A DNA stretch of 64,000 bases from Buxus sempervirens. Lineage: Eukaryota; Streptophyta; Magnoliopsida; Buxales; Buxaceae. Position 1 is the first letter of the stretch. Each line of letters begins with the position of its first letter. The position numbers and the translations under genes were made by a program. Location of the stretch: positions 27,150,276-27,214,275 of the forward strand of contig OX387193.1 of NCBI GenBank assembly GCA_947561395.2. The letters run 5' to 3'. The notes beneath the pieces are model-generated. The model saw only the letters and a program-made list of their open reading frames with translations. It was not told where the DNA came from and ran no database searches. Shown piece after piece: positions 17,227 to 64,000 of this stretch.

Positions 17227-17400
17227 GGTGATGTGTACTAAATGCAAAATTTTAAACGGTTATTTATCGGTTTGGGTTTAGCTTCCCATGGATCCTTGTT
17301 AAGCTTAGTAATGTGATGGTATGTGTTTGTTGGTGTAATTGCATGGCCTTGTGTGTTGCCACGACCAGTGTAGAGCAGCCAGATACCCTGAGTAGGCCTG

Positions 17401-20329: not shown

Positions 20330-23300
20330 GCGCGCGACCGCGACTTTTCATTTCTTTTCTCCTTGCTCCGATTACTCAGACCGGCTCCAGACCTTCGTCC
20401 TCGGTTCCGACGGCTGCTCCCTCCTTCTCCGACGAATCCCTGAGCTCCGGTGCCTCCTATTGTTGCCAGCGACGACCTGCAACTCCGGCGACTTCGGTGA
20501 TCGGCCATTCAAGGCAGCAGTCGAGCCCTAGCCCGATTTCTTCCAATTTTCGGTGGTTCTCTCAACCCAATATCATTGTCTTTGCTCCGGTGATCTTCTT
20601 TGAACTCCGGCGAATCCAATTTCACTTTCTCTATTGCCCATCAAACAGTAAGTGCAATTGGGCACCTTTATGTATTTTTTTGTTCATGCCGAATTGCCAC
20701 TTATTCTATGAATTTTCTGTTAATTTCATTTGATCACTTACTCCCCCTAGGCAAGAAGGATTCAGACTTTTCATTTGCTATTGAATTCTTGGATGAACCA
20801 TTTTCGGCCTATTTCTTTGCTGCTGAAACTTTTCAGACTTAATGCCTTGTGCTTTGCTATGATCATGATTTCTTTCTTCTTTTGTGGTATCCTTGAATTA
20901 ATGCTATCTCAGAATTTTGGACTATCGGCTGCTGATATGAACTGATGATGTCCTGCTGCTTGCATGCCAATTTTGTATGTTAGAACAAACTTTGCTTTCC
21001 TAATTCAGTTTTGCCACAATTCTTTAGAACTGTCTTGTTGGTGATATTTTTCACTGTTCCTGTACCAATCCCCAATCGGATGGTTCACGGTATGATTTTG
21101 CTTTTCCAGCCTTGATGCGACATCTGTTTTTCTGGTCTTGCTCCTTCTTGATGTATGTACTAACTGCCAGTGGATTACAAGCTTTTGCTTACTCCCCCTT
21201 TTGTTGTGAATTTTTCTTAATTAACTGTCCAATCTGGATTTCTGCAATTCTGCTTGCTTTTGATGCCTTGACCTTCCCGCTTCTCATATCCTGGAACCAT
21301 AACATACAGGAAATGTTAAGTATTTTAGAAAATGTTTCAAGATTAGAAACAGAAATATTCCTCACTTCAAAACTTTAGAGATAACTTAGGTGAGGTAAAA
21401 TTCCCATGATAGTTTCGGAAAATAATCATGTAAAACTAGATATGCACCTTAAGCAAAACCAACTTTGAAATTTATAAAACACTTCCCTGTGTAGATGGCT
21501 AGGAGTCGTTCCCGAGTTAGAGAGGAGGCTGACCCTGCTGATCAGCCCTCCAGTTCGCGGGCTCGGACAGAGGCGAGCTCCAGCGCCACCTTGTCTGAGC
21601 CATTAGATGTCTCCAGGGAGAGCTCTGCTGAGGTAGGCTTTCAAAAATTTCTTCATTCTTTCTTCATTCTCCTCCTACATCAATCGTCACACCTTTCTCT
21701 TTGAAATTTAGCCCGTGGTTGCACCGGCTCGGGGTCGAGGCAGAGGCAGAGGCAGAGGCAGAGTTCAGGATCAGGCCCTTGAGGACGAGAGAGGCCGTGG
21801 CAGAGGCCGAGGCAGAGCCAGAGATACGGCTCCGGAGGGGGTTACTGTAGCCCTTGCAGGAGTTCCTGAGGAGTTGAGGGCCTCTGTGCATGATACAGAG
21901 CTCCTCCATGGCTTGGATAGCCACCCCTCCATGTGCATCAGGGCCGATGTGCCGCTTCCATACCATTCTTCCCATCTGCGGGGTAGTTGGGGGAGATTTA
22001 GCGAGTTAGCTCAGTCATTGTCTCCGGCACTCAGGCGGGAGTTTGGGAGATGTCATCTGGACCACTTTCTTAGCATCCCATCCTTCAGAGCTGACCGTCC
22101 ACTCATCTTTGCCATGATGGAGAGGTATTTCCCAGAGACTCAGTCATTCCATCTGCCGGACGTGGAGCTGGGGATCCGCCCCTCTGATTTTGTGATGATT
22201 ACTGACATTCCTCTGACGGGGCGGACCATTGTCTTGGAGCGGCCTTCTGCGGAGGATATGGGACTTCTCTTGGGATATCAGGCCCTGCCACCTACTGCTT
22301 GGGATGGGCGGAGCGGCCGGCTCTCCATTAGCTGGCTGCGGGAGAGTCTGGCTCGTCATTTTGAGAGGAGGCACGAGACCGTCTCTGTGGAGGATGCAGC
22401 CTTTGCACCGATCTTCCGACATGTATTCCTGTTGATGTTGGGGAGCTGCTTCTTCCCGGAGGATACTACCGGTGTCAGTCCGCTCTTTTTGGACGCCTTG
22501 AGAGATTTCCATCAGACCCGCCAGCTAGCATGGGTCGGCTTATCTATGGGACCATCTTGGCCGGGCTGTGCCGAGCGGTTCGAGGCTTAGCATCTCCAAG
22601 AGGTGATGGAGTCAGCAGCCGGTTCTTCTGGCAGATTCTACAGGTATTGCATTTATCTGTCTGGTTTAAGTCCTTAGGCTTTATCTTTTCTTGACTGATT
22701 TTTCTTTTTTTAGGTGTTCATGTACACCTATATGACCTTCTTCCGCCCCTCTCTGGTTCCTGAGGTTGCGGATTTCCCTGTGGCCTTGCGATGGTCGGCC
22801 CAGGTTCGAGATGCTGATAGGAGCCAGCCTCGCACTGCCCGGGTGCACTTAGACCGTGCCCGCCGATCTGATGTAAGTCCTCTATCTTTTTTCCTTTCTA
22901 TTTCTTTTCCTGTATCTTGACTGTACCTGACAGTTTCCCTTTTTTGCAGCTCCTTCTGTCCCGATTTGATGACGTGGATGTTGGAGTGGCTCGTGAGATG
23001 ACGGTACAGGACGCCTTCGATAGAGATCGACGACGTCAGCCCTACCAGTGCTTCCTCGGGAGGCTTGGTAGGGTGATGTACTTAGGAGAGCGTCTGTACT
23101 TCCAGCACACCAGTGAACTTCGCATCCCCGTCCCTCCTCCTCCTGTGGGTCCCGACACACTCCTCCCGGGTTTTGATGTTGATCAGTTTGATCACTTCCT
23201 GGATGCAGAGGGGCTCACAGTAGCCGGAGATTATGACGAGTGGTTCCAGAGGGTGTCTATTGGATGCTTGATGGATCGACCCACTCGTGCCGAGGTGACT

Positions 23301-24186: not shown

Positions 24187-24420
24187 GGACACGTGGATGA
24201 TCCTGCATAGGAGTAGTTAGAGATTTTAGGATTTTCATGTCTTTTTCATCATCATTGTACCAAAACTTGCATATATATATATGAAAAAAACTTTGATTCA
24301 TTTTATCTTGTGTTGCACATCTTTTGTTCTCAATTTTATGCGATTATGACATGTAAGCAGGTAAAACAGGTAAAAAATTCGAATTTTTTCATCCTTAGCT
24401 CCTTTTTTCCATTTTTTCTT

Positions 24421-24581
24421 TGTATCCGGTCTGACATACCGGATACATTGACTAGTCTTAGTATCCGGTATGTCATACTGGATACTCGTGCCATCCTTTG
24501 TATCCGGTATACATATCCGGATATTAATAAAGCCTTTGTATCCGGTCTGAGTTACCGGATACGTTAAAAGATGCTATAAAT
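24421..24581 (+). promoter_or_regulatory. Palindrome cluster and TATA box of opposite-strand gene 2
   Basis: About four units of the GTATCCGG-spacer-CCGGATAC type lie at 24421-24562. Thirteen bases further is TATAAAT (24575-24581). The gene 2 ATG lies 112 bp downstream of that. The palindromes thus sit in the place of upstream promoter elements. Confidence 0.65.
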
Positions 24582-24692
24582 GCAACCAGCCTCGGGATTT
24601 GAGCATTTTTTTACGAGTTTTTGAGTTTAGAAACCCCCTTTTTTGCCTTTTCCTTCCTCCTCTTGAGTTCTAGCTTGCTCCCATCACATCCA

Positions 24693-26397
24693 ATGGAATC
24701 CGGATCATCTTCTGCCCCGTTATTGTCTGTCCACACTGCCTCCCCTGCAAAACAACCTTTTAGATCAAAACCCCCAAATCTCACTAGGTACAACCCTGTG
24801 GATTCCTTTTACACAAGGTGGGTTAACTCTATGACCCTAGATGAGGAGAGGAGATGGGGTTCTACTAATCTAGGCCATACCCTGCTCATTCCCAAGGTTC
24901 CCTTCAGGTGGGAGATTATAGAGGCCATGATTGGTCATTGGGTTCCTGATCTCAACTTGTTCCGTTTTGGGACCCATGAGATGACCCCAACCATTGAGGA
25001 GGTGGAAACCATCTTGGGCCTGAGGTTTGATGAGAAGGTGGTGAATCCACCTCTAAGGCCCAGTTACAAAAAGGAAGCTTCTACATTCCTGGGCATAGGG
25101 AAGAAGGACTTGGGGGACTCTGACACCCTTTTGACCCTATCTAAGGCCTTTTTGACTGAGAAGCTTTTGAGGGGGGAAGATAAGGAGGCCCGGTTCAATG
25201 CGTTGACCCTGATAGTGGTCAACCAGTTGCTTTTCCCAAGGGATGATGATGAGGTGGACTTGGCCTTGATCTCAGTGATATGCCAGGTTCGGGAGAGGGA
25301 GAGGTTGGCCCCTATGATTTTAGCAGGGATATATCAGGCCTTAACCGACTGCTACAATAGGAAGTCGAAACGCTTCCTAGCATGTGCCCAGATCCTGCAA
25401 GTAAAAAAAAATTCTCTTTTTTTTTTTATTTTTTTTTCTTGCTTTTTGGCTTTCTTTTTGCCTTTTCTGCTTTTTTTTTTTTTTTACAATGTGCTGACAT
25501 ATCTCCCTTCCTTTGCAGCTTTGGCTACTTGATCATTTGAGCCAGATTGAAGAGATCAATCGACACTTCTTCCAGAGTCTAAAAGTCCCCCTCTTGATAA
25601 GCAACAGGGGGTGCCCCGATATTCCAGGGGGCAAACAGGGTTGGTTCACTTTCTTGGTCTCGCTTCAGGATGACCAGGTGAGATGGCCTGGTACTTATCA
25701 GCCTAATGCAGAGACAGTGATTAGCTTCCGTGACCGCAACTTTTTGATCCTAGCGGGCCTGAAGCATGCAATGCTGTATCTTCCTCTGCGGGTCCTTCGT
25801 CAGTTCCGTGCGACCCAGGGGATTATCATCCCGTGTGGATATGAGGATCGTCTTGGGCCCCTTTCTATGAAGCTGAATGCCTGGTTGATGAAGGAGTGGT
25901 CCTATGTCCGCTTTATGCATGGTCCAGTCTTCTCAGAAGCCCATGTGAAGGATTATCTCTTCTGGATCAAGGAACAGATACAGACCCAGGCCCCGGTACC
26001 CGAAGATCCTCCTGTAGTCTTGGCTCCCACCTATGAGGACATTCTAGAGTCTGAGCGGGCTTCTCATAAGCGGCTTCAGCAGATATGGGTACGGGAGGCC
26101 CAGGAGCTCAGGATACAAGGCGCTTATCTGGAGAGGCAGCTTGAGGAGCAGATCTCACGCCGTATTGCCGTGGAAGAGAAGCTGGAGGAGCAGAGGCAGG
26201 CCCGTTGCTTCGAGGTCCGTATGATCCGGCAGAAGTACCAGGCTACTTTGGCCAGCCTTAGGAGTATGAGGATCAAGCAGGCCCTTTCAGATGAGGTCAT
26301 TTCCTTCCTGAGTGATCCCGCTGCAGAGGGGGCTTCAGGAGTTATTGCAGCTCAGGCAGCTCGGATTCGGGAGCTTGAGGAGCGGCTAGGAGACTAG
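24693..26397 (+). CDS. Opposite-strand gene 2 of Tat22: DUF7745-like / mobile-domain-like protein with C-terminal coiled coil
   Basis: Two coding blocks, 24693-25400 and 25519-26397, are separated by a T-rich 118-bp intron with a GT donor after CTGCAA and acceptor TTTGCAG. The intron is in phase 0. The N-terminal block has WEIIEAMIGHWVPDLNLFRF and GTHEMTPTIEEVETILGL, resembling plant mobile-domain and DUF7745 proteins often found with plant retrotransposons. The second block ends in a heptad-rich, charged coiled coil (about the last 110 residues). The start is the ATG at 24693 (CCAATGG), 112 bp after a TATA box; the frame is open further upstream, but without an ATG. AATAAA follows near 26477. 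Function unknown. It appears uninterrupted. Its neighbour gene 1 lies upstream in the same direction; both are antisense to gag-pol. Confidence 0.7.
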
Positions 26398-33017: not shown

Positions 33018-34586
33018 CTAGACTGTAGTCCCCACAGGTGCTATAAGCTGAGATGGGTCAAAGGCCCTTCTCGCGGTGGATATGACAGTGATGGAGTTGG
33101 ACGGGCCTGCCCCATTGTGGTAAGGCAGAGGGTTCTGCCCAATATCATTCCCGGACGGGGCGGGTGCAGCAGTGTTGAACACCAAGGCCTTCTGGTCCAA
33201 CAAATCCTGGACTGCATGCTTCAATACCCAGCAGTTCTCTGTAGAGTGTCCTGGTGCACCCATGTGGAAGTCACAGGTGACCGATGTGTCAAAATTTCTT
33301 CCCTTAGTGGCATTTGGGTTAGGCTCCTTCAGAGTCAAGTATTCCCCCTTCAGCAGGGTTGGCAGTAGTTGGGACAGCGATATGGGTAGAGGGGTGAAAA
33401 CTCGGTTCTTCCTTGCTGCAAACCAGGCATCCCGTTCCTCCTTAGTAAAGGTCCTCCTTGTGTTAGCTGGCACAGAGGGAGAGAAGTTGACATTCAGCGG
33501 GGTCTGGTACGACTGCTGGGCCTGTTGGGGTGCCGAGATGTTCACCTGAAGTGGCTTCTTGGCTGGAGGAGCCTGGACCAGTTTCACCTCCCCTTCTTTT
33601 CGAGCCCCCGTCTTTTTGAACCCGGCCCCTTTCTTCTGGGCCATGGAGGCAGAGGAATCAGACTGCCCAGTCAGAGTAGAGTAGTCTATCAGCCTTCCTG
33701 ACCTGACCCCTTCCTCAATCCGGTCTGCCACTTGTACCAAGGCAGCAAAGTTGGTGGTGATTTGGCCCACCAGATGGTTGTAAAAGGGCTGGCCCAGTGT
33801 GCCCATAAATGTGGAGATCATCTCTGGCTCTTGCATAGGTGGCCTGACCTGGGAGGCGGCCTCTCTCCATCTCTTGGCGTACTGCCGTACCGGTTCATCT
33901 TTCCCCTTGGTCATCCTCATCATGTCGTACCGGTCCGGCACAATCTCCGAGTTGAACTTGTACTGGTCCAAGAAAGCGTCGGCTAGGTCCTTCCACCTCC
34001 TGATCCTTCCATGGTCCACTGTAGCGAACCACCGAAGGGCTGACCCGGTCAGACTCCTCTGGAAGAGCTGGATCAGTATTCCATCGTCCCGGCCAAACTG
34101 GCACAGGGCCCCGCAGTATAATTTGAGATGGCTTAATGGGCAGCCCGTGCCATCAAATTTATCGAAGTCTGGGCACCTGAACTTAGCCGGTAGACAGACG
34201 TCCGGGTACATGCACAGGTCCTCGAAGGTGGTGCCTGCATGGCTGCCTCCCCCCTTCACTTCCTTCAGCTCTGCCTGGATCCTCTCTATCCTGAGCAGCA
34301 TTTTCTTTTCCATCTCATCTCGGGCCTTTCCTTTTTCCAGCTCTTTCTCAGACTCCACTGTATTTTCCCTAATCAGAATGGGCTCAGGGACTGGTTCAGA
34401 AATGAGCTCAGGCATGGGCTGAGCCGGAGGCGGAATATAGGCCTGAGGTGGCGGTGCCGGATGAGAAGTCGACGCCTGATTTTGGGCTTGGGCCTGAGCC
34501 GCCAGTAAGTCTCCCAGGGTCCCAATTTCTAGGGCTTCCAAGGGTCCCAATTTTTTTTTTTTGATTTGATTGATAAAAATAACCAA
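33018..34586 (-). CDS. Tat22 gag
   Basis: Capsid/nucleocapsid protein. The retrotransposon gag domain is clear: FDKFDGTGCPLSHLKLYCGA, FQRSLTGSALRWFATVDHGR, WKDLADAFLDQYKFNSEIVP. A zinc-knuckle-like CDFHMGAPGHSTENC follows near the C-terminus. Its first residues read out of the 76-bp tandem array (LGPLEALE repeats), whereas TatD gag starts with its own unique N-terminus, so the array seems to have expanded up to or into the gag start. Confidence 0.85.
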   Translation of the reverse strand: MVIFINQIKKKKLGPLEALEIGTLGDLLAAQAQAQNQASTSHPAPPPQAYIPPPAQPMPELISEPVPEPILIRENTVESEKELEKGKARDEMEKKMLLRIERIQAELKEVKGGGSHAGTTFEDLCMYPDVCLPAKFRCPDFDKFDGTGCPLSHLKLYCGALCQFGRDDGILIQLFQRSLTGSALRWFATVDHGRIRRWKDLADAFLDQYKFNSEIVPDRYDMMRMTKGKDEPVRQYAKRWREAASQVRPPMQEPEMISTFMGTLGQPFYNHLVGQITTNFAALVQVADRIEEGVRSGRLIDYSTLTGQSDSSASMAQKKGAGFKKTGARKEGEVKLVQAPPAKKPLQVNISAPQQAQQSYQTPLNVNFSPSVPANTRRTFTKEERDAWFAARKNRVFTPLPISLSQLLPTLLKGEYLTLKEPNPNATKGRNFDTSVTCDFHMGAPGHSTENCWVLKHAVQDLLDQKALVFNTAAPAPSGNDIGQNPLPYHNGAGPSNSITVISTARRAFDPSQLIAPVGTTV

Positions 34587-35345
34587 CCAAGGTTTTCATG
34601 GAATATTCTAGGGCTTCCAAGGGTCCCAATTTTTTTTGATTTGATTGATAAAAATAACCAACCAAGGTTTTCATGGAATATTCTAGGGCTTCCAAGGGTC
34701 CCAATTTTTTTTGATTTGATTGATAAAAATAACCAACTAAGGTTTTCATGGAATATTCTAGGGCTTCCAAGGGTCCCAAGTTTTTTTTATTTGATTGATA
34801 AAAATAACCAACCAAGGTTTTCATGGAATATTCTAGGGCTTCCAAGGGTCCCAATTTTTTTTGATTTGATTGATAAAAATAACCAACCAAGGTTTCTTGG
34901 AATATTCTAGGGCTTCCAAGTATCCCACAAATGTTTTGATTTGATTGATAAAAATAACCAACCAAAGGTGTCTTGGAATATTCTAGGGCTTCCAAGTATC
35001 CCACAAATGTTTTGATTTGATTGATAAAAATAACCAACCAAAGGTGTCTTGGAATATTCTAGGGCTTCCAAGTATCCCACAAATGTTTTGATTTGATTGA
35101 TAAAAATAACCAACCAAAGGTTTCTTATAATATTCTAGGGCTTCCAAGTATCCCACAAATGTTTTGATTTGATTGATAAAAATAACCAACCAAAGGTGTC
35201 TTGGAATATTCTAGGGCTTCCAAGTATCCCACAAATGTTTTGATTTGATTGATAAAAATAACCAACCAAAGGTGTCTTGGAATATTCTAGGGCTTCCAAG
35301 GGTCCCACTTTTTTTTTTGACTTGATTGGTAAAAAGGAGACCAAC
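34531..35345 (-). repeat. Tandem array, 11 units of about 76 bp, upstream of Tat22 gag
   Basis: Each unit contains, on the minus strand, TTGGAAGCCCTAGAATATTCC followed by a GGTTGGTTATTTTTATCAATC stretch. Two subtypes exist: the five or six nearest gag have GGGTCCCAATTTTT on the plus strand, the distal ones TATCCCACAAATG. TTGGAA/TTCCAA can pair around the loop GCCCTAGAATA. 76 is not a multiple of three, so frames through the array are incidental. Confidence 0.95.
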
Positions 35346-37312
35346 CAAGGGTTTTCTTTTTTTTTTTTTATTTTTTTCTTCAAATTTGCTGAATTTTCTC
35401 AGTTTTCAAATTCCAAAGTTTAACTGACACATGCTTGAGTTGAGTTGGTGTCAAAAAATATGACACCTTGGTTTACTCTTTGATTTTCAAACTTTTGGGT
35501 TAAATCCTGAAAGAATATTTTATTTGTTTTTTTTTCTATATATATATATTTTTTGATTTTATATTTTTGGGAACATTTCTTATGTTCTTTTCGGGGTGCC
35601 TAAGGATTATCCACAGTGTTTTAGGCATTTTATTCTGAAAATTTGGGCTGAACAGCCAATTTGTGCATTTTTTTGAATGTATCCAGTATACTATACCGGA
35701 TAAGAATATGCCTTATTGTATCCGGTCACCCTAACCGGATATACGCATATGCCTTTGTATCCGGAAATACATACCGGATATGATTAGAGTTGTTATTAAC
35801 CGGCCTGAGTTGCCGGTTATTGCCGAAATGGCCCTTTTGGACTCATTTTTTCACCAGATTTGATTTTTTTTCATTCCCTCTTGGTGTTCACCTTAACTTG
35901 ACCTTCAAAACTTGCCCCAAATTTGGCTTGGACATCATACTTGTAAAAATCCCCAAATTTATGGATAGAACATGGCTTTACCTTGCCACCTTGTATTACC
36001 TTCATTCAATATGGTATTCACATTATACCTTAGCCTGTAAAACATGCAAACGGCCTTCCCACATTTACACCCAATTCCCCAAACGCAATTGTGTGCTTTT
36101 AGCCGAAAACGTGTTTCTCCACCTTCAAGCGTATGGTTTTTGGGTTTTGGCTTAATTGGCAACTTAGAACTCAAGTCTAGTGATGCCCGGAATCGAATCA
36201 CAGATCCCATTGTCATCACATCATTGACCCAAATTCTAAGGTAAATGTTTTCACTTTCGCTTTCCGAAGTCACGACCTCGGTGCGCCAAGCTACACACAT
36301 TCATGGTTCAACTTCCTAATAGGCAAAGGGTAGGCTGTGCAAATTGTTTCAAGTGCTCAAGTGCAATTTTAAATTGTGGTAACATTCATAACGTCCCAGC
36401 CCCTTGCCACTCTTTTTCGTAGCCATGCATTCATTCCAAGCCAAGGCATATATGACAAAATAATGAAGCCAAATACAAGCAAGCAAGCACCAAATATGTA
36501 CAAAAATATTACATGCCCAAAAAGTAGTATACAAAACATGTTATTTGCACAAACAACAATTAAATCATGTAAACATGCTTGAAACCCAAAAGCATTCCTA
36601 TAATTCCAGATTTCATGCTCAAAGTGTACCATTTTTACCCAAATTGGAGCCTAAAATTTTAGCACTACTTGACATGGTTCAAAAGTGTTTCAATGAGGTA
36701 AAACATGCTTGAAAACCCCTAAATATACACTGAAATTTCCAGATTTTTGTTCTTCATTTTTTTTGTGCTCAAATGACATTGTTTTATGCCCAAATCCAAG
36801 CCTAAAACCCAGAAGCTAACAATATGACATAAAAAGCTTTTAGCTTGGGAAACATATGCTTGAAAATTCCCAAAATTCCCACCAAGCATTTCAGATTTTT
36901 TTTTCATTGTTTTCATGCTCAACTCATGTCATCCCATACCCACCAAGTCCAAATCATGGCATAAAACAACCATTAAGCACAAAAAGCATTATTCATGGAA
37001 AACATGCTTGAATACTCAAAATTTACACCAAATTTCCAGATTTCGAAAATTTCTTTTTCATGGCATAACAACTTAAATCAGAGCATGTTATCACAAAACA
37101 CATCCAAATCATGTTTCAAAATAGGCTTCTTCCAGACACATTTCTAGCCAACATCAAGCCACACATACATGCTTTTGATTCATATAAATTCTAAGCATCC
37201 GAATCTGATTTGAAATATAACAATATGCACAAATGAAGTAAACAAAATAGCAAGCATTCAAAAGTAGAGAAAAGCATGAACAAATACACAAAAATGGCTT
37301 AAATCCACAAGT
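35346..37312 (-). other. Tat22 leader (between PBS and array)
   Basis: About 2 kb without a supported gene. A stretch at about 36040-36440 matches, in the same element orientation, the TatD leader at 60765-61200 (shared phrases ATGGCTACGAAAAAGAGTGG, AACGAGGTCG-like, CACCTTGAAGGTGG-like). 35675-35823 holds the leader palindrome cluster. Confidence 0.6.
35675..35823 (-). promoter_or_regulatory. GTATCCGG palindrome cluster in Tat22 leader
   Basis: Four inverted units: GTATCCAGTATACTATACCGGATA, GTATCCGGTCACCCTAACCGGATA, GTATCCGGAAATACATACCGGATA types and AACCGGCCTGAGTTGCCGGTT (arms 7-8 bp, spacers 6-10). TatD has four different palindromes in the same place (61577-61690). Confidence 0.65.
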
Positions 37313-37331: not shown

Positions 37332-39624
37332 TGTGAGACATGGGAAAAAATCACCGGTGTGATCATCCCTCCGTCAACACACGGGCTCAACGCAAAAATG
37401 GGAGAGTCGCCACCATTCATGATTTTGGGGTGAGAATGGACACCAAAGAGTTCAAAAATAAGCAAAAAGTGCTAAAATGCCAATTCTAAGGTAAAAATAA
37501 CCCTACTTGAAAATCAAATCCAGAGATGGGTAAGGGGATTAGATTATGAACGGGGGAAGGTGTTAGGCACCCCCATTCATCCACACGGAGTGGTTGCCAA
37601 GTGTATGTTCATGCTAAAAAAATAAGAAGCTTGCTAAAAATCATGAAAAAGCCTTGAAAAAGGAACAAGTGTATGATATATTCACATGAAGATCCAAATG
37701 GATTTTAGATCTTCTTTTATGTCAATATCACTTCTGGAATATCTCAAAAAATGGAAATCAAAGCACAAGTTGATCAAAAACAAGTTAAATCAAATCCGGA
37801 AAAATTGGTAAAAAGTATGCCATTTGCCTTGAAATCACTCAAATCCAATATTAAATTGAACCAAACCAAATCCATTTGAAAGATTAGGGTAAATGAGAGT
37901 TTCATGCAAAATTCAATCCATTCTGATAAAAAACCTAGGAGTTATGCTCCTTTGAAGTTGCTGCTGGGGATTTTTAAAAGTGGTAAGTGGGCAACTTTGG
38001 AAACTTGTCTAGAAAAATCCACTACATAAAAGTCCACGAAATTTGGTGTGATTGAAGTCTGTATGGCCATATTTCCAGAGAAACTAGCCTCATACAAAAA
38101 TCCCTTCGGATGTGCCTTGGGTGGTCTCCCGAACAGGCCCCGAAGATCACAGATTTACCCAGAAAAGTACAAATGAACAGTTCTGAGTAAATCGGCTACC
38201 AATAATTCAAATGGAATCCAAAAATTATGACACTAATTGGATTTGAAAATAGACTCATTAAGGAGTACCCAGAAACAAAAATCACTCGAATCGGACTTAA
38301 AATGAACACATGCCGCTCTGTCGAAGTGACAAGTTCTGTATTTGAACCTGAACTGTCCACATAACTTCGACAGAGAGGTGTCAAAAATCCGCTTGATAGA
38401 AATTCATTAAATTTGGTGGACATAAACTAGACAGCCTCACCTTTCCCATGGTTCAAGAATCACCCCAAAATTCATCCGGATGATGAAGTTATGGGCGTCC
38501 GAAGTAAGGGTACAGGTGCTGTCAAGCTAAGCCATTTTTGAGTAAAACCAAATCCGAAAATTGATAAAAAATGAGATTCGTGCAAGATGAACACAAATAC
38601 TTTAAAAATCATCCAAAAGGCATTCCAGAATTGATTGAGGCCATTTATTTGAGATTTATCACAATAAATGCAATAAACCCCAAATAGGAGCCTATCCCGC
38701 CAAAATAGTGATATGTATGTGCAAGTGTAAAAAACCAAACAAGATCAATAGCATGCATACATATTCATCCAAATAGGGTTCTAAGACAGCCTAGGGTTCC
38801 GTTCCATTATCGTTTCCCTCTGTTCTCTCTCCCCGTTAAACACGGTTCTTCAAGATAATCAAGGGTACTTTGAATATGGAACGGTTTACAATCAATCAAA
38901 AAGGCCTTATGCTATATGGGTTCTAGCACTAGGGTCAATCCCCAGTCTCGTTTCTTCTAGATCCGCCTTCACGTTTTACGGCTAGGGGAGTCTTGAGATA
39001 CTTTGAGCCGGGGAAGGATTTCCACACATACAAACAAGGCTTTACACTACAGAAAGGTAGAAGAAGAGATCTAGATCTAGGAATGTAAAGACAGAAAATA
39101 AAAAGAAAAGTTGAGGCTTACCTGAGTTCTGGAGGCGATTCCACAACGGTTTTCTTCTTCTCTTGGAGTTCTTCTTTGCGAGAATTCAAAACAAGAGTTG
39201 TGTTCCATTTGCTTAAGGAGGAGTCTCATATTTATAGGCAAAGGCTAAGGTCATTGGTAGACACAAATTAATGTCTAGAACCCCTCCAACCTTAACCCTA
39301 AGGTCATTTCCGCGATTTCCCCTCATTTAATGAGGGACATGATGGTAAAAGTGAAAAGCTCTCGGAAAACCCTAATTTTGAGCAAACTTAAGGTATCCGG
39401 TATGTCAGACCGGATAAAAAAGGGCCTTAAGGTATCCGGTACATGGTACCGGATACACTAAGGCTCACATGTATCCGATATGAGTATCCGGATACGGGAA
39501 AGGGTACTTGTATCCGGATTGAGTATTCGGATACAGGTAAAAGTTTATTTTCTTCAAATTCTGTGCTAGCTTTCCAGGAGATAATGATTTTTGATGATTG
39601 TTTGTGCAATTTGGGGTGTCTACA
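37332..39624 (-). repeat. Tat22 5' LTR
   Basis: 2,293 bp. In element direction: palindrome cluster (39392-39534), TATA box CTATAAATA (about 39229-39237), then a leader exon with donor CTCAG|GTAAGCC (GT at 39121-39120). It has one palindrome unit (about 31 bp near 39431-39462) absent from the other LTR. Confidence 0.97.
39392..39534 (-). promoter_or_regulatory. Four GTATCCGG palindromes upstream of the Tat22 LTR TATA box
   Basis: Units at 39392-39416, 39432-39456, 39471-39495 and 39510-39534. In the last one GTATCCGA/TCGGATAC-type pairing is kept with different bases. The nearest unit is about 155 bp upstream of the TATA box in element direction. Confidence 0.7.
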
Positions 39625-39903
39625 GCGTGGTTGTCAGTGCCGATACCCGGAGTAGGCCGGCATTGGATGACGATACCCTGAGTAGGCCGTCATTTCAGAG
39701 TATCCGATACCCTGAGTAGGCCGGAACTGTGTACATGGAGGTGTGGAGTGTCTACTTGGCATGTAAATTAATCAATGTAACCATATGCATAACATTGACC
39801 TGGTTTGAGTTGTTATCGGAATTTCGTTGTTATTATCGTTGGTTATTTGTCGAAGCATGTCTTATAACTGTGTTAACTATTTCTGCATGCATGTGTCACT
39901 CGC

Positions 39904-39921
39904 TGAGATATTCGTATCTCA
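39904..39921 (+). promoter_or_regulatory. S-family conserved hairpin, S2 copy
   Basis: TGAGATATTCGTATCTCA: a perfect 7-bp stem with a TTCG loop. It follows TGCATGCATGTG and lies 27 bp before the acceptor TTTTTCAG (ends 39948). Confidence 0.8.
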
Positions 39922-40968
39922 TTCCCTCGTTGTTGCTTTGTTTTTCAGACATTTGTGGTGAGGTGCCTACGGGGGTAGATCCAGCTGATACATATAGGGA
40001 GGAGGATTATTACTACCGACCTTAGTCCAGCAGGTTGTTTGGTCTTAAACTTGTTAAGTTGAATTTTGAGGATTGTAATAAGATAGTAAACTTGGGACCA
40101 TTTGATGTATTTGATGATTTCAGAACTTGCCTGAATAAGAATTTTGATATGTGCACTCTGATGTGATATAAAATGTGGGTGATTATCCAGCGATCACCAT
40201 TATTGAGATCCTTAACTAACCCCTAGGAGACATGTTATATCTATAATGAAGAACACGGATCCGGGGCGTTACAACCGGGTGAACCAGCAGGGTTTCCGGG
40301 TCAACCGGAAACCCAAAATGGGACATGGGCTTCTAAGCCCAATTTGATTCCTTAGCGGGCCTTCCAACGAGGCCAACCCAACCCAAGATCACCGCTGAAG
40401 ATAAATAAAATAATTTAAATAATTTAAATGAGCCAAACCCTATGAGGCCCATCAAAAGCCCAAAACTGTACATGTAGGCTTAGTTTAGGACTAGTTTAGC
40501 CAAGACCTCGGGCCAGGGCTTGCTGGGCCCACTAATCCCATCAACCCAACTGGATAGGGTCCAACGCCCTGACCCATTGAACCATGGACCACCTGGTCTA
40601 GGTCTAGCCCACTTTGGAAATTAAAATAAAATAAATAAATCCAAATAAATTATTTGGCAACCATGGTGAAGCCCACCCAATGGGCCCACCAAATTAATTA
40701 GACATACCCTAAATAAAACTTTCCAACTTAAACCCTAAGTTAAAAATAATCAAAATTAGCCAAAGCCCACAGGGCCTTTTAGACTTAGACAAGGCCCAAT
40801 AAGGGATATGTGAATCGGCATGGCCCAACATGCCCAAGGCGGCCCGGCACTGCACGCGCATTGTAGTGTGCTGTGCCGGGCCGGGGGTCCTGGGGCGAGC
40901 CGCGGCACGTCGACACGCATGCTTGCCCAGGCCCGTGCTTATGCGGGCCGCGCGTACCAGCCCGTTTG

Positions 40969-43172
40969 TGTAAAACCGCGATATTTTCTAAGGATGATTT
41001 ATTCATTTATTTATTTATTTATGTGGACGAATCAACTCAAGGAGCTGTGTATATGTAGGAATTTCGGTGGGGAGCATGTATGGAATCAAGGAATTTCAAA
41101 GGTTCGTAGAGCGGCAATTTACTTATGGAAGGTATAAATACTTAAGGAAAATTAGGTTTGTAGTTTCGGAAATACTCGTATACATTGTTGAAGGCGATTG
41201 CGGCGATTGTTTTAGGTTTGGGAGAAAAGAAGAACTTTTAGTCTTCCTCTTGGCGAACTGGGTGTTTGAGATCAAGGATTTTAGAAGAGTTTTCCCTCTG
41301 GCGATCAGAGGAGCTTCTGGGTGACGATAGCAACCAGGTGATCGACTGTTGGTGTGGGTTTTGCTCTACGAAGGGTTGCTGTTGCAAAGACTTGGAAGCG
41401 TATAAGGTGAGTAGCATCGTTTTCGTTTGTCGATGGTTTTGTCCTCTGTATTTTACCGAAAGCATGTTCTTAGTCTTGTTCTGCTGTTGCATCTGTTCCG
41501 TGAGTTTGGTTTGATGAGGGAAGAATACGTGAATTAAAAGTGGTTCTGATTAAGTCCGAAATATATCTAAGGGTTTTTTGGTAATGATAGAAGCGTATAC
41601 GAGAGGTTACAGGGGTCAGAAACACAGCCAGAGATGGAGATTTGGGATTAACAGAGAGTCGTTTATCAGAGGTAGGATCAGCCGACTTGGTGCCTACCTA
41701 GCGCCAAGTGAACTGAGTTGGCGCAAGCTAAGAAAAAATTGTTAAAGCCTATCTTGCGCTAAGCGCGCGCGAGGTTTTTTTTGTTCTTGCCTCTCGCTTA
41801 ATGATTTTCATCCGCGCTAAGTAGATTTTGGGTGTGCGCTGAGTCCATGCTGACCTCGCGCCCAGCACCAGAGGTCAGTGCACCCTATGGAATTTTGCCG
41901 AAGCAGGACTTTTGCCAATCCTAACCAAAATTTGATACTCTGAATCTACAAACCCCTGTCCAAAGGTTATACTAGGACGTTAGAAATATTATTTTTGTGC
42001 AAAACAAATTGGAGAGTATTGAATCATATTCTGAGTATTTCTACAAACTGTCGAAAGGTGAGTTTAAGGAATTTAGGTAGGATGTTGCTATTCATGATCC
42101 TATAAGAAAATGAGTTAATTTGGTTATATATATTTTTATCTGTTTCCTGTTTTTGAAATTTGTATATATCTGTTTTGTTCAATATCCAATGACTGAAAAG
42201 AATTGAAAGGTTTTTGTGTGAGTAATGGGAAGTTTATTGCGTGAATGTGTTGTTGAGAGGCTGGGAAACTTATAAATTTGTGCGAGTTGATGTTTTGGTT
42301 GGAACAACTTGTGATGAGTGTATTGGGTTACACAGGATTTAAATAAATGTGGGTTTACTGTTTTGCCAATGCGGAGTTTTATGTGGTTATTAATCGGTTT
42401 TGGGTTTAGCTTCCCTTGGATCCATGTTAAGCTTAGTAATGTGATGGTATTTGTTTATTGGTATAATTGCATGGCCTTGTGTTGCCACGACTAGTGTAGA
42501 GCAGCCAGATACCCTAAGTAGGCCTGGTTGTCAGTGTTGATACCCGGAGTAGGCTGGCATTGGATGACGATACCCTAAGTAGGCCGTCATTTTAGAGTGT
42601 CCGATACCCTGAGTAGGCTGGAACTGTGTACATGGAGGTGTGGAGTGTCTACTTGGCATGTGAATTAATCAATTTAAGCAATATGCATGACATTGACCTT
42701 TTCGTTTGATTTATCGGTAATCTGGTTGTTTAATTGTTGGTTATTTATTGAAGCATGTTTATAACTGTGTTAAACTATTTCTGCATGCATGTGCTACTCG
42801 CTGAGATATTCGTATCTCATTCCTCGTTGTTGTTTTGTTTTTCAGATCTTCGTGGTGAGGCGCCTACTGGGGTAGATCCGACTAACACCTATAGGGATGA
42901 GGATTATTACTACAATCCTTAGACTAGTAGGTTATTTTAGATTTAAACTCTGTTTCAATTGATTTTGTGGGAAATGTAATAAGGTAGTAAATTGGAACCA
43001 TTTGATTCTACTTGAAGATTCTATAGACTTCTTAGATAAGAATTTTAATTGTGCACTCTGATATGGTATAAATTGTGTGATTATCCAGCGATCACTTTTA
43101 TTTGGATCCTTACCTAACCCTCTGTGAGACGTGTTATATCTTTAATGAACAACATGGATCCGGGGCGTTACA
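40969..43172 (+). mobile_element. Solo LTR S3 (S family)
   Basis: Starts TGTAAAACCGCGATATTTTC and ends GGATCCGGGGCGTTACA. Flanked by GTTTG at 40964-40968 and 43173-43177, a perfect duplication. 2.2 kb. Donor AAG|GTGAGTAGCAT at 41407, palindrome cluster at 41668-41885, GATACCC...GAGTAGGCC repeats at 42515-42625, hairpin at 42802-42819, acceptor ending at 42845, short exon-like frame to the stop at 42920-42922, then GTGCACTCTGATATGGTATAAA, also a family-wide phrase. Inserted in LTR B. Confidence 0.92.
42802..42819 (+). promoter_or_regulatory. S-family conserved hairpin, S3 copy
   Basis: TGAGATATTCGTATCTCA, identical to S2. The acceptor follows 26 bp downstream. The exon-like frame after it shares with S2 the pattern D-[IL]-x-G-E-x-P-T-G-V-D and ends in D-Y-Y-Y-x-P. 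Confidence 0.8.
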
Positions 43173-57822: not shown

Positions 57823-58537
57823 TGTAACGCCCCGGATCCAGGTTTATTTAAACACATAAACCCAAATCTGGTTCGTTAGGGAAAATGGCCCAAAACATTG
57901 TTCCAGACTTAAAAAAATTCATTTATTATATCAGAGTGCAGAAATAACAACATCTTTCAGAAAGCGCAGAATTAAACTACCAAAATAATCCTTTTATATT
58001 TAATCTAAAAAGTCTGGAAATGGTTCAACTAAATAACATCCACCAAGGGTGTGGAATAAAGAGACCAATCATCCTCCAAATAACATCAAACTCCTCAATC
58101 AAAATACTAAAAATAATCCATAAGAAAATAAATCTAAATGTTTCTCCATGTCCTTCTGGACCTACACAGGAATGAAATAATCTTTTTCCTGGTAATCACA
58201 GTAATCCCTCGGTGTCTCTACCCCGGCAACGTCCTCTCTACGAATATCTGAAAACAAAACCGATAAAACAATAATGTGAGAAACAAGATCTCAGTAAGCA
58301 GTCATGCAAATAGTTGACCACAATAAAATATGCAATGCTTAATCCGAATAATTACAATAAGATTCAAGACAACAATGAAATACAATTTGTCCACCTCATG
58401 GGACTCATGAAATAGTATACCAGAAAAAGAGAGTATACATGTGTCAGTATGCTACCTAACCGAATTACGATGGACCAACCGCCCTGCAATCTGGCTATTC
58501 AACACCAACAGAAGAACCCAACCATGAGTTAGCATGT
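57823..58537 (-). mobile_element. S-family LTR S8, cut by TatD
   Basis: The plus strand begins TGTAACGCCCCGGATCCAGG, i.e. the 3' end of a minus-strand S LTR. It keeps the CTGCACTCTGATATAATAAA phrase, a short exon-like frame with acceptor GTTTTCAG (about 58249), and the hairpin at 58277-58293. TatD starts at 58538; the rest of S8 would lie beyond the window. Confidence 0.75.
58277..58293 (-). promoter_or_regulatory. S-family conserved hairpin, S8 copy
   Basis: Minus-strand TGAGATCTTGTTTCTCA: outer arms TGAGA/TCTCA kept, loop changed. Confidence 0.5.
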
Positions 58538-60343
58538 TGTAGACACCCCAAATTGCACTAAAAATGAGAAAATAATGAAAACATTAATTGGAATTTAAAA
58601 CAGGCCAAAAATGCATGAAAATCAGTAATTAGAGCCTGGACCGTATTACCACTACGGGCTAAGCATGCCCGAATTCTAAATACGGGTAAGCAGCGCCCGT
58701 AGTAAATATACGGATATTGTGGGACCGTAAATCATTTACGGGCACATCAGACTCGTGCGAGTTCTGTTCTTCTCTCGATTTCTGAGCCTTATCTTTAGTC
58801 CAATATCCCTTTAAATGAGCGAATTATATATTTTATTCGTGCGAAATATCTTTGTGGATAAAGGATGGGCATGACCTTGTGTTTAACTCAAACTGAAACT
58901 CTATCTTGCCAAACCTTGGACCAACCATACCCCTGGGTTTGCCTATAAATAGAGGGCCTTTCCTCAAGCAAAAGGCCACGAAAATTTGAAGTCTAAAAAG
59001 CTCGAAGAGAAGACGAGGAACCCCTGCTGCTTTGCTTGCTCAATCCAGGTAAGTCCCTTTCCCCTTTTATTTTCTATCTTCAATTCTAGATGTAATAGGA
59101 TCATCTCTATTGCTGTAGAATAAGGCCATATCTTTTGTATCTAGTATTCCTAAACTTGTCTCCAAGTACCTCAAGAGTCTCTCTAGCCGTAAAACGTGAA
59201 GAGAGAGCTAGGGGAAAAGAGAACAGGTGGATCCCTAGAATAGAACCCCATATCTGTTTTTCTCCTTTTTTCTAGAATAAAGCCTTTGATTGTGTTTGTA
59301 TAACCAAACCTATCTCGAAGTACCTCAAGAATCCTCTCTAGCCGTAAAACGTGAAGAGAGAGCTAAGGGAAAAGAGAACAGGTGGATCCGTAGGGTAGAC
59401 CCCCATGTGCTCTAATCTGTGAGATGTGGCTGCTTTGAATATCTTGATCATGTTTTAATGCTTTTTATGATGAATCTGAATGAATAACATGAATCCATGA
59501 TGTTTATAGCATGAGATCCCCACTTTTTTTTATAAAATTTGGATTTTTGCCACTTTTGCACCTACAGCACTGTTTTTCGTGATTTTTGTGAGATTAGGCT
59601 AAGATCTTGGATTTATCATGATCAATATGGTATATCTGAATTCAGAAGCCTGAAAATAAATTCTAGGGTTTCATGAAGTTGTTTTTAAATCGTTTTTCAT
59701 TATTGAGAGAAGACCCTACGGTCTAAGTTTTCCCCTTTTGATGTTCTTCATCAACGTGGGTATTTTTGGTTTTAATTTCTTGATTTAATGTGAAATTTAG
59801 GCTATATCTATGTCCTGGACCATTCAAGTTCAATTTTGAAATATTTTATAAAAATCATATTTTTCTAGATTTCTAGAATTTGACTTGAAGCCAGATTTTT
59901 GGGATTTTTCACTTTAAATTGATTTTATTTGATTTTATCTAAATTTTATTTTGTTCATGAAACCCTAGGAATGGTATGATTATATTTGAAAGTTCTGGAT
60001 CAATCAGACTATTCATATGAAAAAACCATATATTTTTGTCTTTTTTGTGATTTTTATAGCAAGCTTTTTTCCTTTATTTTAACATGAACAAATACCTGGA
60101 AACCACCTTGTGTGGATGAATAGGGGTGCCTAACACCTTCCCCTGTTCATAACCTAATCCCCTTACCCATCTCTGGTTGTTTTTTTTAGGAGGGTTATTT
60201 TTACCCTAAAATTGCCTTTTGTGCTTATTTAATATTTTGGTGTCCATTCACACCTAAATTGAATGGTGGTGACTCTTTGTTTCATTCAATCCCATGTGAT
60301 GATGAGGAAGTCAAAGGTTTTTGATTTTTTCCCATGTCTCACA
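58538..60343 (+). repeat. TatD 5' LTR
   Basis: 1,806 bp. Palindrome cluster at 58650-58742, TATA box CTATAAATAGAGG at about 58944, leader exon, donor CCAG|GTAAGTCCC at 59049. Two near-copies of a segment (AAGTACCTCAAGA.TC, CTCTAGCCGTAAAACGTG, GAGCTA.GGGAAAAGAGAAC) lie at about 59160-59250 and 59310-59400. Confidence 0.93.
58650..58742 (+). promoter_or_regulatory. ACGGGC-type palindrome cluster in TatD U3
   Basis: CTACGGGCTAAGCATGCCCG, ATACGGGTAAGCAGCGCCCGTA (outer arms) and CCGTAAATCATTTACGG. They lie about 110-205 bp from the LTR start and about 200 bp upstream of the TATA box, the same place as the unrelated GTATCCGG units of Tat22. Confidence 0.65.
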
Positions 60344-60345
60344 AC

Positions 60346-60362
60346 TGGCGACTCTGCTGAGG
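60346..60362 (+). other. Primer-binding site (tRNA-Arg) of TatD
   Basis: TGGCGACTCTGCTGAGG two bases after the LTR end; nearly perfect match to the 3' end of tRNA-Arg. Confidence 0.88.
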
Positions 60363-61835
60363 ACTTGAGGATTTCAGCCTTTTGGTGTTTGTTCATGTTT
60401 TTGATATTTTTTGATTTGCTTGCTATTTTGTGTTCTTAAGTATGTTGGGTATGTTTTAAATCTGAATTATTGCTTAAGAATTCATGGGGGTAGAAACATG
60501 CTTAATTTTGATTTATAGGATTGTTTCTACAAACATGCGTAGGGGAGGTTCGTTTTGCTGAACCATGTTTATTTCTTGCTATATTTTTATGATAGCATGT
60601 TTTAATTTTCAGCATGATCTTCATGATGCGTTTTTGGGTGTATAACATGATCATATGTTTGCATGATTGGATGATTTTTATGAGCATGTTTTAGGTGCTA
60701 TAGGATTGTTTTGTGTATTTGTTTAATTTAAATATGCTTTCATATTATGCCTTGGTTTGTTTATGCATGGCTACGAAAAGAGTGGCAAGGGTTTGGGACG
60801 TTGTGAATGCACCTTATTTTTACAATGCACTGTGCACCTTTTATTTTTTTTACACAGCCTACCCTTAACCTATAAGAAGTTGAACCCAAATGTGTGTAGC
60901 TTGGCGCAACGAGGTCGATACTTCGGAAAGCGAAAGTGAAAACATTCACCTTAGAACTTTGAGCTAATGATGTGATGATAACGTGGATCTGTGATTCTGG
61001 TCATCACTAGGCTTAAGTGCTAAGTTGCCATTAAGCCAAAACCCAAAACCCCTACGCTTGAAGGTGGAGTTACACGTTTTTTGCCAAAGTACACAATTAC
61101 TTGGGGATATGAGCTTGTAATTGTGGGAAGGCCGTTTGCATGGCTTACAAACCAGGGCATAATGCGGATGCCATATTGAAGGTAAACAAGGTAACAAGAT
61201 AATCCTATTGTTTTGCATTATTTTCATGTCATAGGGGTGTCATGGTGCCCATTGGTTAGGGATAAAATTGGTCCCAAAATATGCATGTTTCTAAAACATG
61301 GTGTAACCCATTGGAAGAGTCTCTAACTCTGTTTAGAATCAATCCTACACAATGTTTGTACAAGAGGCAACAAAAGGGTATCAAAGTATGAGTATGGTGT
61401 CAATTTGGAGGGTACATGTGCCCTCCTAAACATGTGTTTTAGCGAAAAGGTCAAAGTCCACTTTGGGACAGTTTAGAAGTCCTGCACTGGGTGAACTATA
61501 TGTTTGGATGAGCAATTATAATGATCAAATCATGTAAAAACTGGAAAAATATAACAGAATTCAGTAAAACCGCATTTAGTACACGGGCTGGGCTTACCCG
61601 TAGTGGTTATACGGGCTCAGCTCGCCCGTGTTTTCCATACGGTCACGGCTTGCTCGTAATTTGAATACGGGCAGGGCTGGACCGTATTGTATATGCGGTT
61701 TTCGCGGAATATTCAATTTTAATCAGTTTTTCCCACTAAAATCTTCCTTTAACCTTTAAATAATGATAAAGGGAAATGAGTTTTAATAAAATGCTTCAAA
61801 AAAAATAATAAATAAATAAAATGTGAAGAGAAAAT
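60363..61835 (+). other. TatD leader
   Basis: No supported gene. 60765-61200 is similar to the Tat22 leader. 61577-61690 holds four palindromes built on ATACGGGC ... GCCCGTAT: TACACGGGC.../CCCGTA, ATACGGGCTCAGCTCGCCCGT, ATACGG.../CGTA and ATACGGGCAGGGCTGGACCGTA types. Confidence 0.6.
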
Positions 61836-61839
61836 CCTT

Positions 61840-63045
61840 TGGGCCTCTGAAAGCCTTTGAATTTCAGACTTTTTCTCAAAAACTCCTTGGGCCTCTGAAA
61901 GCCTTTGAATTTCAGACTTTTTCTCAAAAATCCCCGGGCCTCTGAAAGCCTTTGAATTTCAGACCTTTTCTCAAAAAAATGTCCTTGGGCCTCTGAAAGC
62001 CTTTGAATCTTAGATCTTTTGGGCCTCTGAAAGCCTTTGAATTTTAGACCTTTTTCTTTTGGGCCTCTGAAAGCCTTTGAATTTCAGATCTTTTGGGCCT
62101 CTGAAAGCCTTTGAATTTCAGACCTTTTTCTTTTGGGCCTCTGAAAGCCTTTGAATTTCAGATCTTTTTGGCCTCTGAAAGCCTTTGAATTTCAGACCTT
62201 TTTCTTTTGGGCCTCTGAAAGCCTTTGAATTTCAGATCTTTTGGGCCTCTGAAAGCCTTCGAATTTCAGATCTTTTGGGCCGTCTAAAAGCCTCTGAATT
62301 TTAGACACAACCTTTTTGGGCCGTCTATAAGCCTCTGAATTATAAACACATATCCTTTGGGGCCATTTGAAAGCCTCTGAATTTCAAACATCAATTTATT
62401 TGGGCCATTTATAAGCCTCTGAATTATAGACACATTTCATTTTTGGGCCGTCTATAAGACTCTGAATTATAGACACATATCCTTTTTTTGGGCCGTCTAT
62501 AAGCCTCTGAATTATAGACACATATCCTTTTTTTGGGCCGTCTATAAGCCTCTGAATTATAGACACATCTTTTTGGGCCATTTGAAAGCCTCTGAATTTC
62601 AAACATCCATTTCATTTTTGGGTCGTCTAAAAGCCTCTGAATTTTAGACACAACCTTTTTGGGCCGTCTATAAGCCTCTGAATTATAGACACATATTCTT
62701 TGGGCCGTCTATAAGCCTCTGAATTATAGACACATATCCTTTGGGCCATCTAAAAGCCTCTGAATTTTAGACAATCATTTCTTTGGGCCGTCTAAAAGCC
62801 TCTGAATTTTAGACAAATAATTTCTTTGGGCCGTCTAAAAGCCTCTGAATTTTAGACAATCATTTCTTTGGGCCATCTATAAGCCTCTGAATTATAGACA
62901 CATATCCTTTGGGCCTATGAAAGCCTTTGAATTTCAGATTTTTTTCAAAAATATCCTTGGGCCTCTGAAAGCCTTTGAATTTCAAACTTTTTCCAAAAAT
63001 TTCTTTGGGCCTCTGAAAGCCTTTGAATTTCAGATCCTTTTCTTT
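61840..63045 (+). repeat. Tandem array of about 29 hairpin units, 33-50 bp each, upstream of TatD gag
   Basis: Each unit is GGGCC + arm + AAGCCTYTGAA-type loop + complementary arm + short T/C-rich spacer. Arm pairs seen: TCTGAAA/TTTCAGA (most 5' and 3' units), TCTAAAA/TTTTAGA, TCTATAA/TTATAGA and TTTGAAA/TTTCAAA in the middle. Almost every unit pairs perfectly or with one G-T pair. Short frames across it are incidental. Confidence 0.95.
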
Positions 63046-63048
63046 TTT

Positions 63049-63112
63049 TTGTGGGACCTATTGGAAGCCCTAGAATATTCCAACAATTCAAATCAAACAA
63101 AAAAAAAAAAAG
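63049..63112 (+). repeat. Single copy of the Tat22 76-bp unit in TatD
   Basis: GTGGGACCTATTGGAAGCCC and TAGAATATTCCAACAATTC then AATCAAACAAAAAA matches the monomer amplified 11-fold in Tat22. It sits right after the hairpin array and before gag. Confidence 0.8.
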
Positions 63113-63280
63113 AAGCAAATAATGAAAAAAATCCAAACTCGTGTTCACCCAGCTTGCACATAGGCATTCCTAGGCATGTGAATGAGATTAAATGGACACT
63201 GATATTTTTCCTTTATTGTTTTGCCAGGTACCAATACACTTGCAATCATAGCTCCTGTAACCATATCAAGAGCTTGCGCC

Positions 63281-64000
63281 ATGAATCCCATTGAGACTGA
63301 AGCTGATGCTCCTCACCCAGATATTGTCTTGCTTCAGGAGCAAGTGGCAGGACTAGCCCGAATGTTAGAGAACATACTATCGGTGCAGGCCCAACAAGTG
63401 CAAGTCCAGAATCAAGCATCCACTTCCAACCCAGCACATCCACCCCAAATCAATATCCCACCTCTGGTTCAACCTATTCTTGAACCCATTTATGAACCCA
63501 CCCCTGAACCTATACTGATCAGGGATGAGACCGTTGAATCAGACAAAGAAAAGGAAAAAGAAGGGATGAGGGATGAGATAGAAAAGAAGTTCATGCATAG
63601 GCTGGAGATGATTCAAGATGAACTGAGGGAGGTGAAAGGGGTGAATAACTTTGGAGGCACCAATTTCGAAGATTTGTGTCTATACCCCAATGTATGCTTA
63701 CCGGCCAAATTCAAGTGTCCGGATTTCGATAAATATGATGGCACTGGCTGCCCAATGAGCCATTTGAAGTTATACTACGGGGCTTTATGCCAGTTTGGTC
63801 GAGATGACGGCATACTAATTCAGCTCTTCCAGAGGAGTTTAACTGGAACTGCTTTGAGGTGGTTTGCCACCTTAGACCATGGAAGGATCAGAAGATGGAA
63901 AGACTTAGCAGATTCCTTTTTGGCACAATATAGGTTCAACTCTAAGATTATACCAGATAGGTATGACATGATGAGGATGGCGAAGAGAAATGATAAGACC
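63281..64000 (+). CDS. TatD gag, N-terminal part (runs off the window)
   Basis: Starts MNPIETEADAPHPDIVLLQE. The frame is open to the window end (240 codons). It aligns with Tat22 gag: TNFEDLCLYPNVCLPAKFKC, KYDGTGCPMSHLKLYYGALC, FQRSLTGTALRWFATLDHGR, WKDLADSFLAQYRFNSKIIP. An acceptor-like TTTTGCCAG ends at 63227, 53 bp before the ATG, so the leader and array could be an intron removed with the LTR donor at 59049 (inference). Confidence 0.88.
   Translation, partial: MNPIETEADAPHPDIVLLQEQVAGLARMLENILSVQAQQVQVQNQASTSNPAHPPQINIPPLVQPILEPIYEPTPEPILIRDETVESDKEKEKEGMRDEIEKKFMHRLEMIQDELREVKGVNNFGGTNFEDLCLYPNVCLPAKFKCPDFDKYDGTGCPMSHLKLYYGALCQFGRDDGILIQLFQRSLTGTALRWFATLDHGRIRRWKDLADSFLAQYRFNSKIIPDRYDMMRMAKRNDKT

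Follow-up and report, generated by a model that had tools for sequence, protein, structure and literature searches.

A tandem hairpin array upstream of gag in putatively Tat-like Ty3/gypsy retrotransposons: a candidate multicopy RNA element of the leader

Retroviral packaging and dimerisation signals are hairpins placed between the major splice donor and gag, and are carried by unspliced RNA only. They comprise a few distinct hairpins, whereas the array reported here, a candidate signal, holds about 30 copies of one; its placement is the same if the leader intron predicted below is real. Little seems to be known of how plant Ty3/gypsy elements select their genomic RNA for export and packaging: the available part of a 2025 review (PMC12786077) covers export, capping and decapping, mentions no packaging signal in the RNA of any plant element, and lists Ogre and EVADE among the notable intron-bearing exceptions. 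The closest described arrays are those of Tat/Ogre/Retand elements (PMC7004042 and PMC11963269, both available in part), which like ours are family-specific and tandem and probably come from reverse transcription. Theirs lie between pol and the 3' LTR, whereas ours lies between the primer binding site and gag and keeps a paired module; a term search of the accessible main texts of the two papers did not find the word hairpin. Sireviruses share with our element conserved, repeated palindromes in non-coding parts of plant LTR retrotransposons (PMC2829016, in excerpt). These CGG-CCG motifs differ from the hairpin array in lying upstream of the LTR TATA box and ahead of env, and have been interpreted as promoter elements. 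Diaspora resembles our element in its potential LTR donors, acceptors flanking the gag start and very long leader, but belongs to a different lineage, and the accessible text (PMC1142308) describes no hairpin array; similar splice sites were predicted there, and in 2005 its authors were aware of no intron upstream of gag.

Cis-acting RNA structures in retroelement leaders and tandem arrays in Tat elements are thus already known, and what would be new here is the multicopy form of such a structure. The sequence-only reading that first drew attention to the locus knew of no covarying hairpin array upstream of gag, and none is described among the matches listed from the open-access literature. 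We favour, tentatively and at somewhat less than even confidence, the reading in which the repeated unit, multicopy in the leaders of Tat-type elements, acts in cis as a selected RNA element that would tag unspliced RNA for export, dimerisation or packaging.

The window, a stretch of 64,000 nucleotides of Buxus sempervirens DNA, contains a pair of related Ty3/gypsy elements, plus-strand E1 and minus-strand E2 (Table 1). E1 leaves the window inside gag, its pol and 3' LTR lying beyond. The LTR starts of the two elements are 93% identical over the first 28 nt, and the 3' end of the E1 LTR falls inside a segment 77% identical to E2. The pol of E2 encodes RVT_1, RT_RNaseH and then RVT_3 (residues 641-759), and an integrase is also present. 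A second RNase H domain after the RT-RNase H is a hallmark of the Tat lineage of Ty3/gypsy elements, and this domain order supports a Tat-like affinity of E2. E1 can be placed with it through gag, which is 75% identical in amino acids over the compared part and which in E2 passes the Retrotrans_gag cut-off.

Table 1. Features of elements E1 and E2 in the window; splice sites and branch point are predictions, and a slash marks the exon-intron boundary.
Feature	Position	Strand	Remarks
E1 5' LTR	58538-60343	+	begins TGTAGACACC, last bases TCTCACA
E1 LTR TATA box TATAAATAGAGGG	58944-58956	+	from sequence; TATA-to-donor distance similar in E2
Predicted donor CAG/GTAAGT	59046-59054 (intron from 59049)	+	in the E1 LTR, 105 nt after TATA
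Primer binding site-like TGGCGACTCTGCTG	60346-60366	+	directly 3' of the E1 LTR; near-identical in E2
Conserved leader block, apparently non-coding	60740-61202	+	80% identical to E2 36455-35978 (-)
Hairpin array, 29 units	61838-63034	+	arm types A (TCTGAAA), B (GTCTAAAA), C (GTCTATAA), D (TTTGAAA)
Unit 30, E2 type	63053-63083	+	6-bp stem; GGGACC..TTGGAAGCCCTAGAATATTCCAA
Predicted branch point CTGAT and acceptor TTTTGCCAG/GTACC	63199-63227	+	T-rich tract; 53 nt before the gag ATG
E1 gag	63281-64000, runs past the window end	+	Retrotrans_gag E 1.6e-4, under the curated cut-off
E2	17401-39624	-	LTRs 17401-19663 and 37332-39624, 97.8% identical
E2 predicted donor CAG/GTAAGC	39116-39124	-	115 nt after TATA; repeated in the other LTR near 19193
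E2 hairpin array	34527-35354	-	10 full units and 1 truncated; also 11 copies of a second, 10-bp hairpin

The tandem hairpin array claimed upstream of gag proved real, with 29 units and a divergent 30th behind them. Each unit runs TTTGGGCC, stem arm, GCCTYTGAA, opposite arm and spacer, with a stem of 7-8 bp; stated more broadly, the module of about 31 nt is a GGG(A)CC flank, a stem of 6-8 bp and a GCC-rich loop with a GAA end. The TTGGGCC flank resembles the site II motif of plants; it is exact in 25 of the 29 units, and the near-constant loop AAGCCTYTGAA, rightly recognised by the sequence-only reading, in 27 (u11 and u16 are one base off each). The four arm pairs that it listed are all present (TCTGAAA/TTTCAGA in 10 units, TCTATAA/TTATAGA in 6, TCTAAAA/TTTTAGA in 5 and TTTGAAA/TTTCAAA in 2), together with six further combinations of one unit each. 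Arm types come mostly in blocks, type A in u1-u11 and u27-u29 and types B-D in u12-u26. Unit 30 has a loop two bases longer and was omitted from the pair counts, trees and simulations. A coding reading of the array was rejected, as the unit spacings of 34 to 51 bp hold no frame; for the same reason we take the GPLKAFEF-like peptides in its open frames to be incidental.

Standard pairs fill 199 of the 203 stem cells (98.0%; seven pairs in 29 units). Three of the seven pairs are changed on both sides (pairs 3, 4 and 6 from the loop: A-T/T-A, G-C/A-T and C-G/T-A), three are invariant and one departs by mismatch only, while an eighth pair is G-C in only 10 of the 29 units and A·C in 5. Among the 16 distinct rows 96.4% of cells are paired, against 87.2% in shuffles (none of 500 as high), and pairing falls to 20-53% when the stem register is slid. 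The covariation claimed for the arms also stands out from shuffled arrays, with a score of 0.319 against 0.145 that none of 500 shuffles reaches. The number of double-change pairs (three) and the number of further pair types (five) do not exceed the shuffles, being matched in 115 and 138 of 500, respectively.

Six units hold the odd cells: A·C together with G·T in u4, G·T alone in u5, C·A in both u13 and u28, T·G in u15 and A·G in u27. The G-T intermediates that had been described are thus present, in u4, u5 and u15, but they are equalled by the three A·C cells of u4, u13 and u28, to which u27 adds its A·G. We observe no preference for sense-strand G·U over A·C in the E1 stems, and with 3 against 3, which are small numbers, this strand test of the intermediates does not favour RNA. 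Recombination as the origin of the G-T unit u5 was rejected, its loop and spacer being those of type A. The same table of intermediates bears on the possibility that a polymerase or reverse transcriptase corrects one arm by copying it from the other through template switching, which would yield pairing without selection, the corrected units then spreading by unequal copying. Pair 3 went from A-T to T-A with no intermediate among the 29 units, and this, together with the equal frequency of A·C and G·U, speaks for it. RNA hairpins are reported to be both created and maintained by template switching (PMC8794818, available in part), and Tat tandem repeats have been proposed to originate by strand transfer during reverse transcription (PMC7004042, likewise). 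We regard such correction as an unlikely, though by no means negligible, explanation, for reasons that appear below in the rates of change and in E2; it may also act together with selection.

Because the array is built largely of four main arm types, plain shuffles overstate the case for pairing. In a tree-aware null, unit trees were made from the full alignment and from a stem-masked alignment, evolution was simulated along them without pairing, and runs were kept if their change count lay within two of that observed. The stems need at least 14 changes on the full tree and 19 on the stem-masked tree. Pairing averaged 82% in the neutral simulations, against the observed 98.0%. On the full tree, when transitions made up two in three changes, 98% pairing appeared in 2 of 3041 kept runs and in 3 of 3079; a share of four in ten yielded none (0 of 2943 and 0 of 3050), and the extreme share of nine in ten yielded 34 of 2961 and 35 of 3015. 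Along the stem-masked tree, each setting reached it in 0 to 2 of its 2436 to 2586 kept runs (0 of 2446 in one). Three double-change pairs arose in 52 of 3041 simulations on the full tree and in 226 of 2446 on the stem-masked tree, and the pair-type count is ordinary (reached in 849 of 3041). The claim that pairing is kept beyond chance therefore survives the tree-aware neutral null (2 of 3041 kept runs), and maintained pairing is supported at roughly the one-in-a-thousand level, which is not overwhelming.

These simulations also weigh on neutral, satellite-like amplification of three or four founders, in which the units would simply have inherited their pairing. The sequence-only reading had itself raised the case of arm changes traceable to a few founder units: this applies to the double changes, which by our reading of the pair table reduce to about three founder events, but not to the stems as a whole, with their minimum of 14 changes on the tree. 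The main arm types are four and lie mostly blockwise, tandem repeats are common in Tat elements (PMC7004042 and PMC11963269, as far as available), and the double-change pairs stay within the shuffles and recur in 52 of 3041 simulations, as founders would have it; the observed percentage of pairing, recovered in only 2 of those 3041, speaks against them, as do the conservation of the module across elements and the uneven change along the unit described next. We consider amplification of this kind improbable.

Change is distributed unevenly along the unit. In the rate alignment, where the flank of type A stands one column out of register with that of types B-D, the full tree assigns 6 changes to the 14 columns of flank and loop, 14 to the 14 columns of the stem and 37 to the 12 columns of the spacer. 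Flank and loop thus have about seven times fewer changes per column than the spacer (p 6e-8 in a binomial test that assumes independence of changes which share one small unit tree). On the stem-masked tree the corresponding numbers are 6, 19 and 34 (p 4e-7 for flank and loop against spacer), and with the GGGCC of the flank aligned in register its 5 columns have 2 changes. Flank and loop are conserved, and the stem varies freely but pairwise. Copying of one arm from the other leaves the low rate of change in flank and loop, relative to the spacer, unexplained.

A comparison with related Tat elements had been proposed, and the same region of E2 bears it out: E2 carries 11 copies of the module between the primer binding site and gag, as in E1. 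Unit 30 of E1 (63051-63083) and unit 1 of E2 are 94% identical over 33 columns, and the remaining full E2 units match the E1 module at 90-94% over 31 to 40 columns. The local score between the modules is 54; shuffling the E1 stretch 1000 times never gave more than 30. The gag genes agree at 85, 87 and 51% of first, second and third codon positions (197 sites each), and the value at third positions implies that unconstrained sites have largely diverged between the elements. When E1 58501-64000 was compared with E2 39700-33001 at E 5e-6 or better, the alignable patches were the LTR start, the TATA and donor region, an LTR patch at 59252-59377, the LTR end with the primer binding site, a leader block of 460 bp, the module and gag. 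Conservation of the module between two such diverged elements is, to judge from these alignments, the strongest evidence for a function, and template switching leaves it unexplained.

The E2 copies are not uniformly well paired. Five of the 10 full stems (the truncated unit lies outside this count) are perfect, four have a common T·T mismatch and one has G·A and G·T. The imperfect stems are uncompensated, and one mismatched unit was itself amplified; mismatches that survived amplification in this way count against arm correction by template switching. In the second, 10-bp hairpin of E2, a C-G/T-A double change separates copy 1 from the five that follow, and the other five copies have a C·A mismatch at that position, one of them with an extra mismatch. 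In both E2 and unit 30 of E1 the flank is GGGACC or GGGATA rather than TTGGGCC. A role at the DNA level, with the TTGGGCC flank and palindrome binding a host factor as an internal enhancer or silencer, or with cruciforms acting in recombination, would suit the constancy of that flank in E1, the palindromic repeated motifs known in Sireviruses (PMC2829016, in its available part) and intermediates free of strand bias, but the change of flank in E2 and unit 30, and the compensating arm changes that a sequence-binding protein would not predict, make it improbable.

The predicted position of the array within the leader adds to the reading of the unit as a selected RNA element. Exact matches to the nine donor bases number three in the window against 0.34 expected, and the shorter AGGTAAG has 11 occurrences, the LTR donors of E1 and E2 being three of them. 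Only 3 of the 829 YAGG sites in the window equal or better the E1 acceptor, itself counted; this acceptor is seen in E1 alone, the corresponding region of E2 having been deleted with the gag start. The array is accordingly predicted to lie in a leader intron of 4.2 kb (59049-63227), and being inside it would be retained only in unspliced, genomic RNA. Between donor and array there are 80 ATGs in E1 and 98 in E2, the array has 2 in 1256 nt, and the predicted spliced leader has none ahead of the gag ATG. Such an intron would explain how gag is translated despite a leader of about 4 kb with more than 80 upstream ATGs.

Under the selected-element reading, splicing would remove 59049-63227 to give a gag mRNA whose short leader has no upstream ATGs, and the unspliced genomic RNA alone would keep the array. 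The many hairpins could then be bound by Gag or by a factor of the host, or could join two RNAs by pairing, and might in this way steer the unspliced RNA to export, dimerisation or packaging; new copies of the unit would arise through strand transfer during reverse transcription. Of the roles proposed earlier, packaging, dimerisation or export appear to fit the predicted intron best, and splicing control is possible. The evidence comes from the sequences of two elements, and within that scope a multicopy leader hairpin together with a predicted LTR-gag intron offers a concrete candidate for the selection of genomic RNA in plant Ty3/gypsy elements.

Folding energies were compared with those of shuffles. 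Single units have z scores of +0.71 to -1.47, which are ordinary values; for unit 30 the predicted fold has a GGG/CCC helix where the arm stem would be. A 991-nt stretch of the E1 array (61840-62830) has z -1.98 on the sense strand, lower than all 20 shuffles, and -0.78 on the antisense strand, where 5 of 20 shuffles were as low; for the E2 array z is -0.52, matched by 6 of 20. Support for structure comes from the comparison between copies and hardly from energy. The flank GGGC could form an additional helix with the loop GCCT, its four pairs being intact in 27 of the 29 units (u9 and u16 lose one each), and the corresponding pairing in unit 30 and E2 would be GGG with CCC. This candidate helix shows no compensatory change. 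A pseudoknot, with short linking loops around the covarying stem, would cover every conserved part of the unit, flank included. That each unit is an H-type pseudoknot, and that some 30 of them in a spliced-out leader form a multivalent tag marking unspliced Tat RNA for export or packaging, is a doubtful elaboration that we offer as speculation.

Further observations concern the leader and its relatives. Rfam has no match above the gathering score in 58500-64000, and three matches lie far below it (E 0.15-0.22). Searches of viral contigs (module pattern, gag and a piece of RT), genome contigs (gag alignment and module pattern), plasmids and phages, none of them a collection of plant genomes and all therefore silent on other plants, returned no relatives. 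In one IMG/VR viral contig (L001:2461-2486) the core of the E2 hairpin recurs exactly, as a 22-mer match that extends to 26 nt. It was rejected as a relative, being single, inside a coding frame and free of tandem repeats, and is most likely a coincidence, though improbable by base counts. The leader block shared by E1 and E2 has no long frame common to both in any of three frames. It contains a run of 68 columns with 4 mismatches (GTGTGTAGCTTGGCGCA..GAAAGCGAAAGTGAAAACATT), is better conserved than the gag DNA and is itself a candidate RNA signal. Separate from the array, short palindromes with a CGG/CCG core occur in the LTR upstream of the TATA box and in the leader before the array (E1 58681-58740 and 61597-61690; E2, minus strand, 39535-39394 and 35819-35718). 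They recall the Sirevirus motifs and differ between the elements, for example TACGGG/CCCGTA versus TATCCGGT/ACCGGATA.

E2 has lost its gag start and acceptor region (minus strand, 34480-34600), so that the array abuts gag codons directly, and on this account the element looks defective. It was apparently inserted into a repeat (17258-17400 and 39625-40273) of which an uninterrupted copy lies at 42385-43172, and a 5-base overlap of two BLAST matches (42522-42526) suggests a 5-bp target site duplication. E2 also has a short repeat at 24418-24562. Between its pol and 3' LTR, two plus-strand frames that are antisense in the element (21712-22590 and 24606-25532) match the plant mobile domain (PMD), the second of them also DUF7745. 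Elsewhere in the window, a host open reading frame at 9510-11231 appears cytochrome P450-like, judged by eye from its translation.
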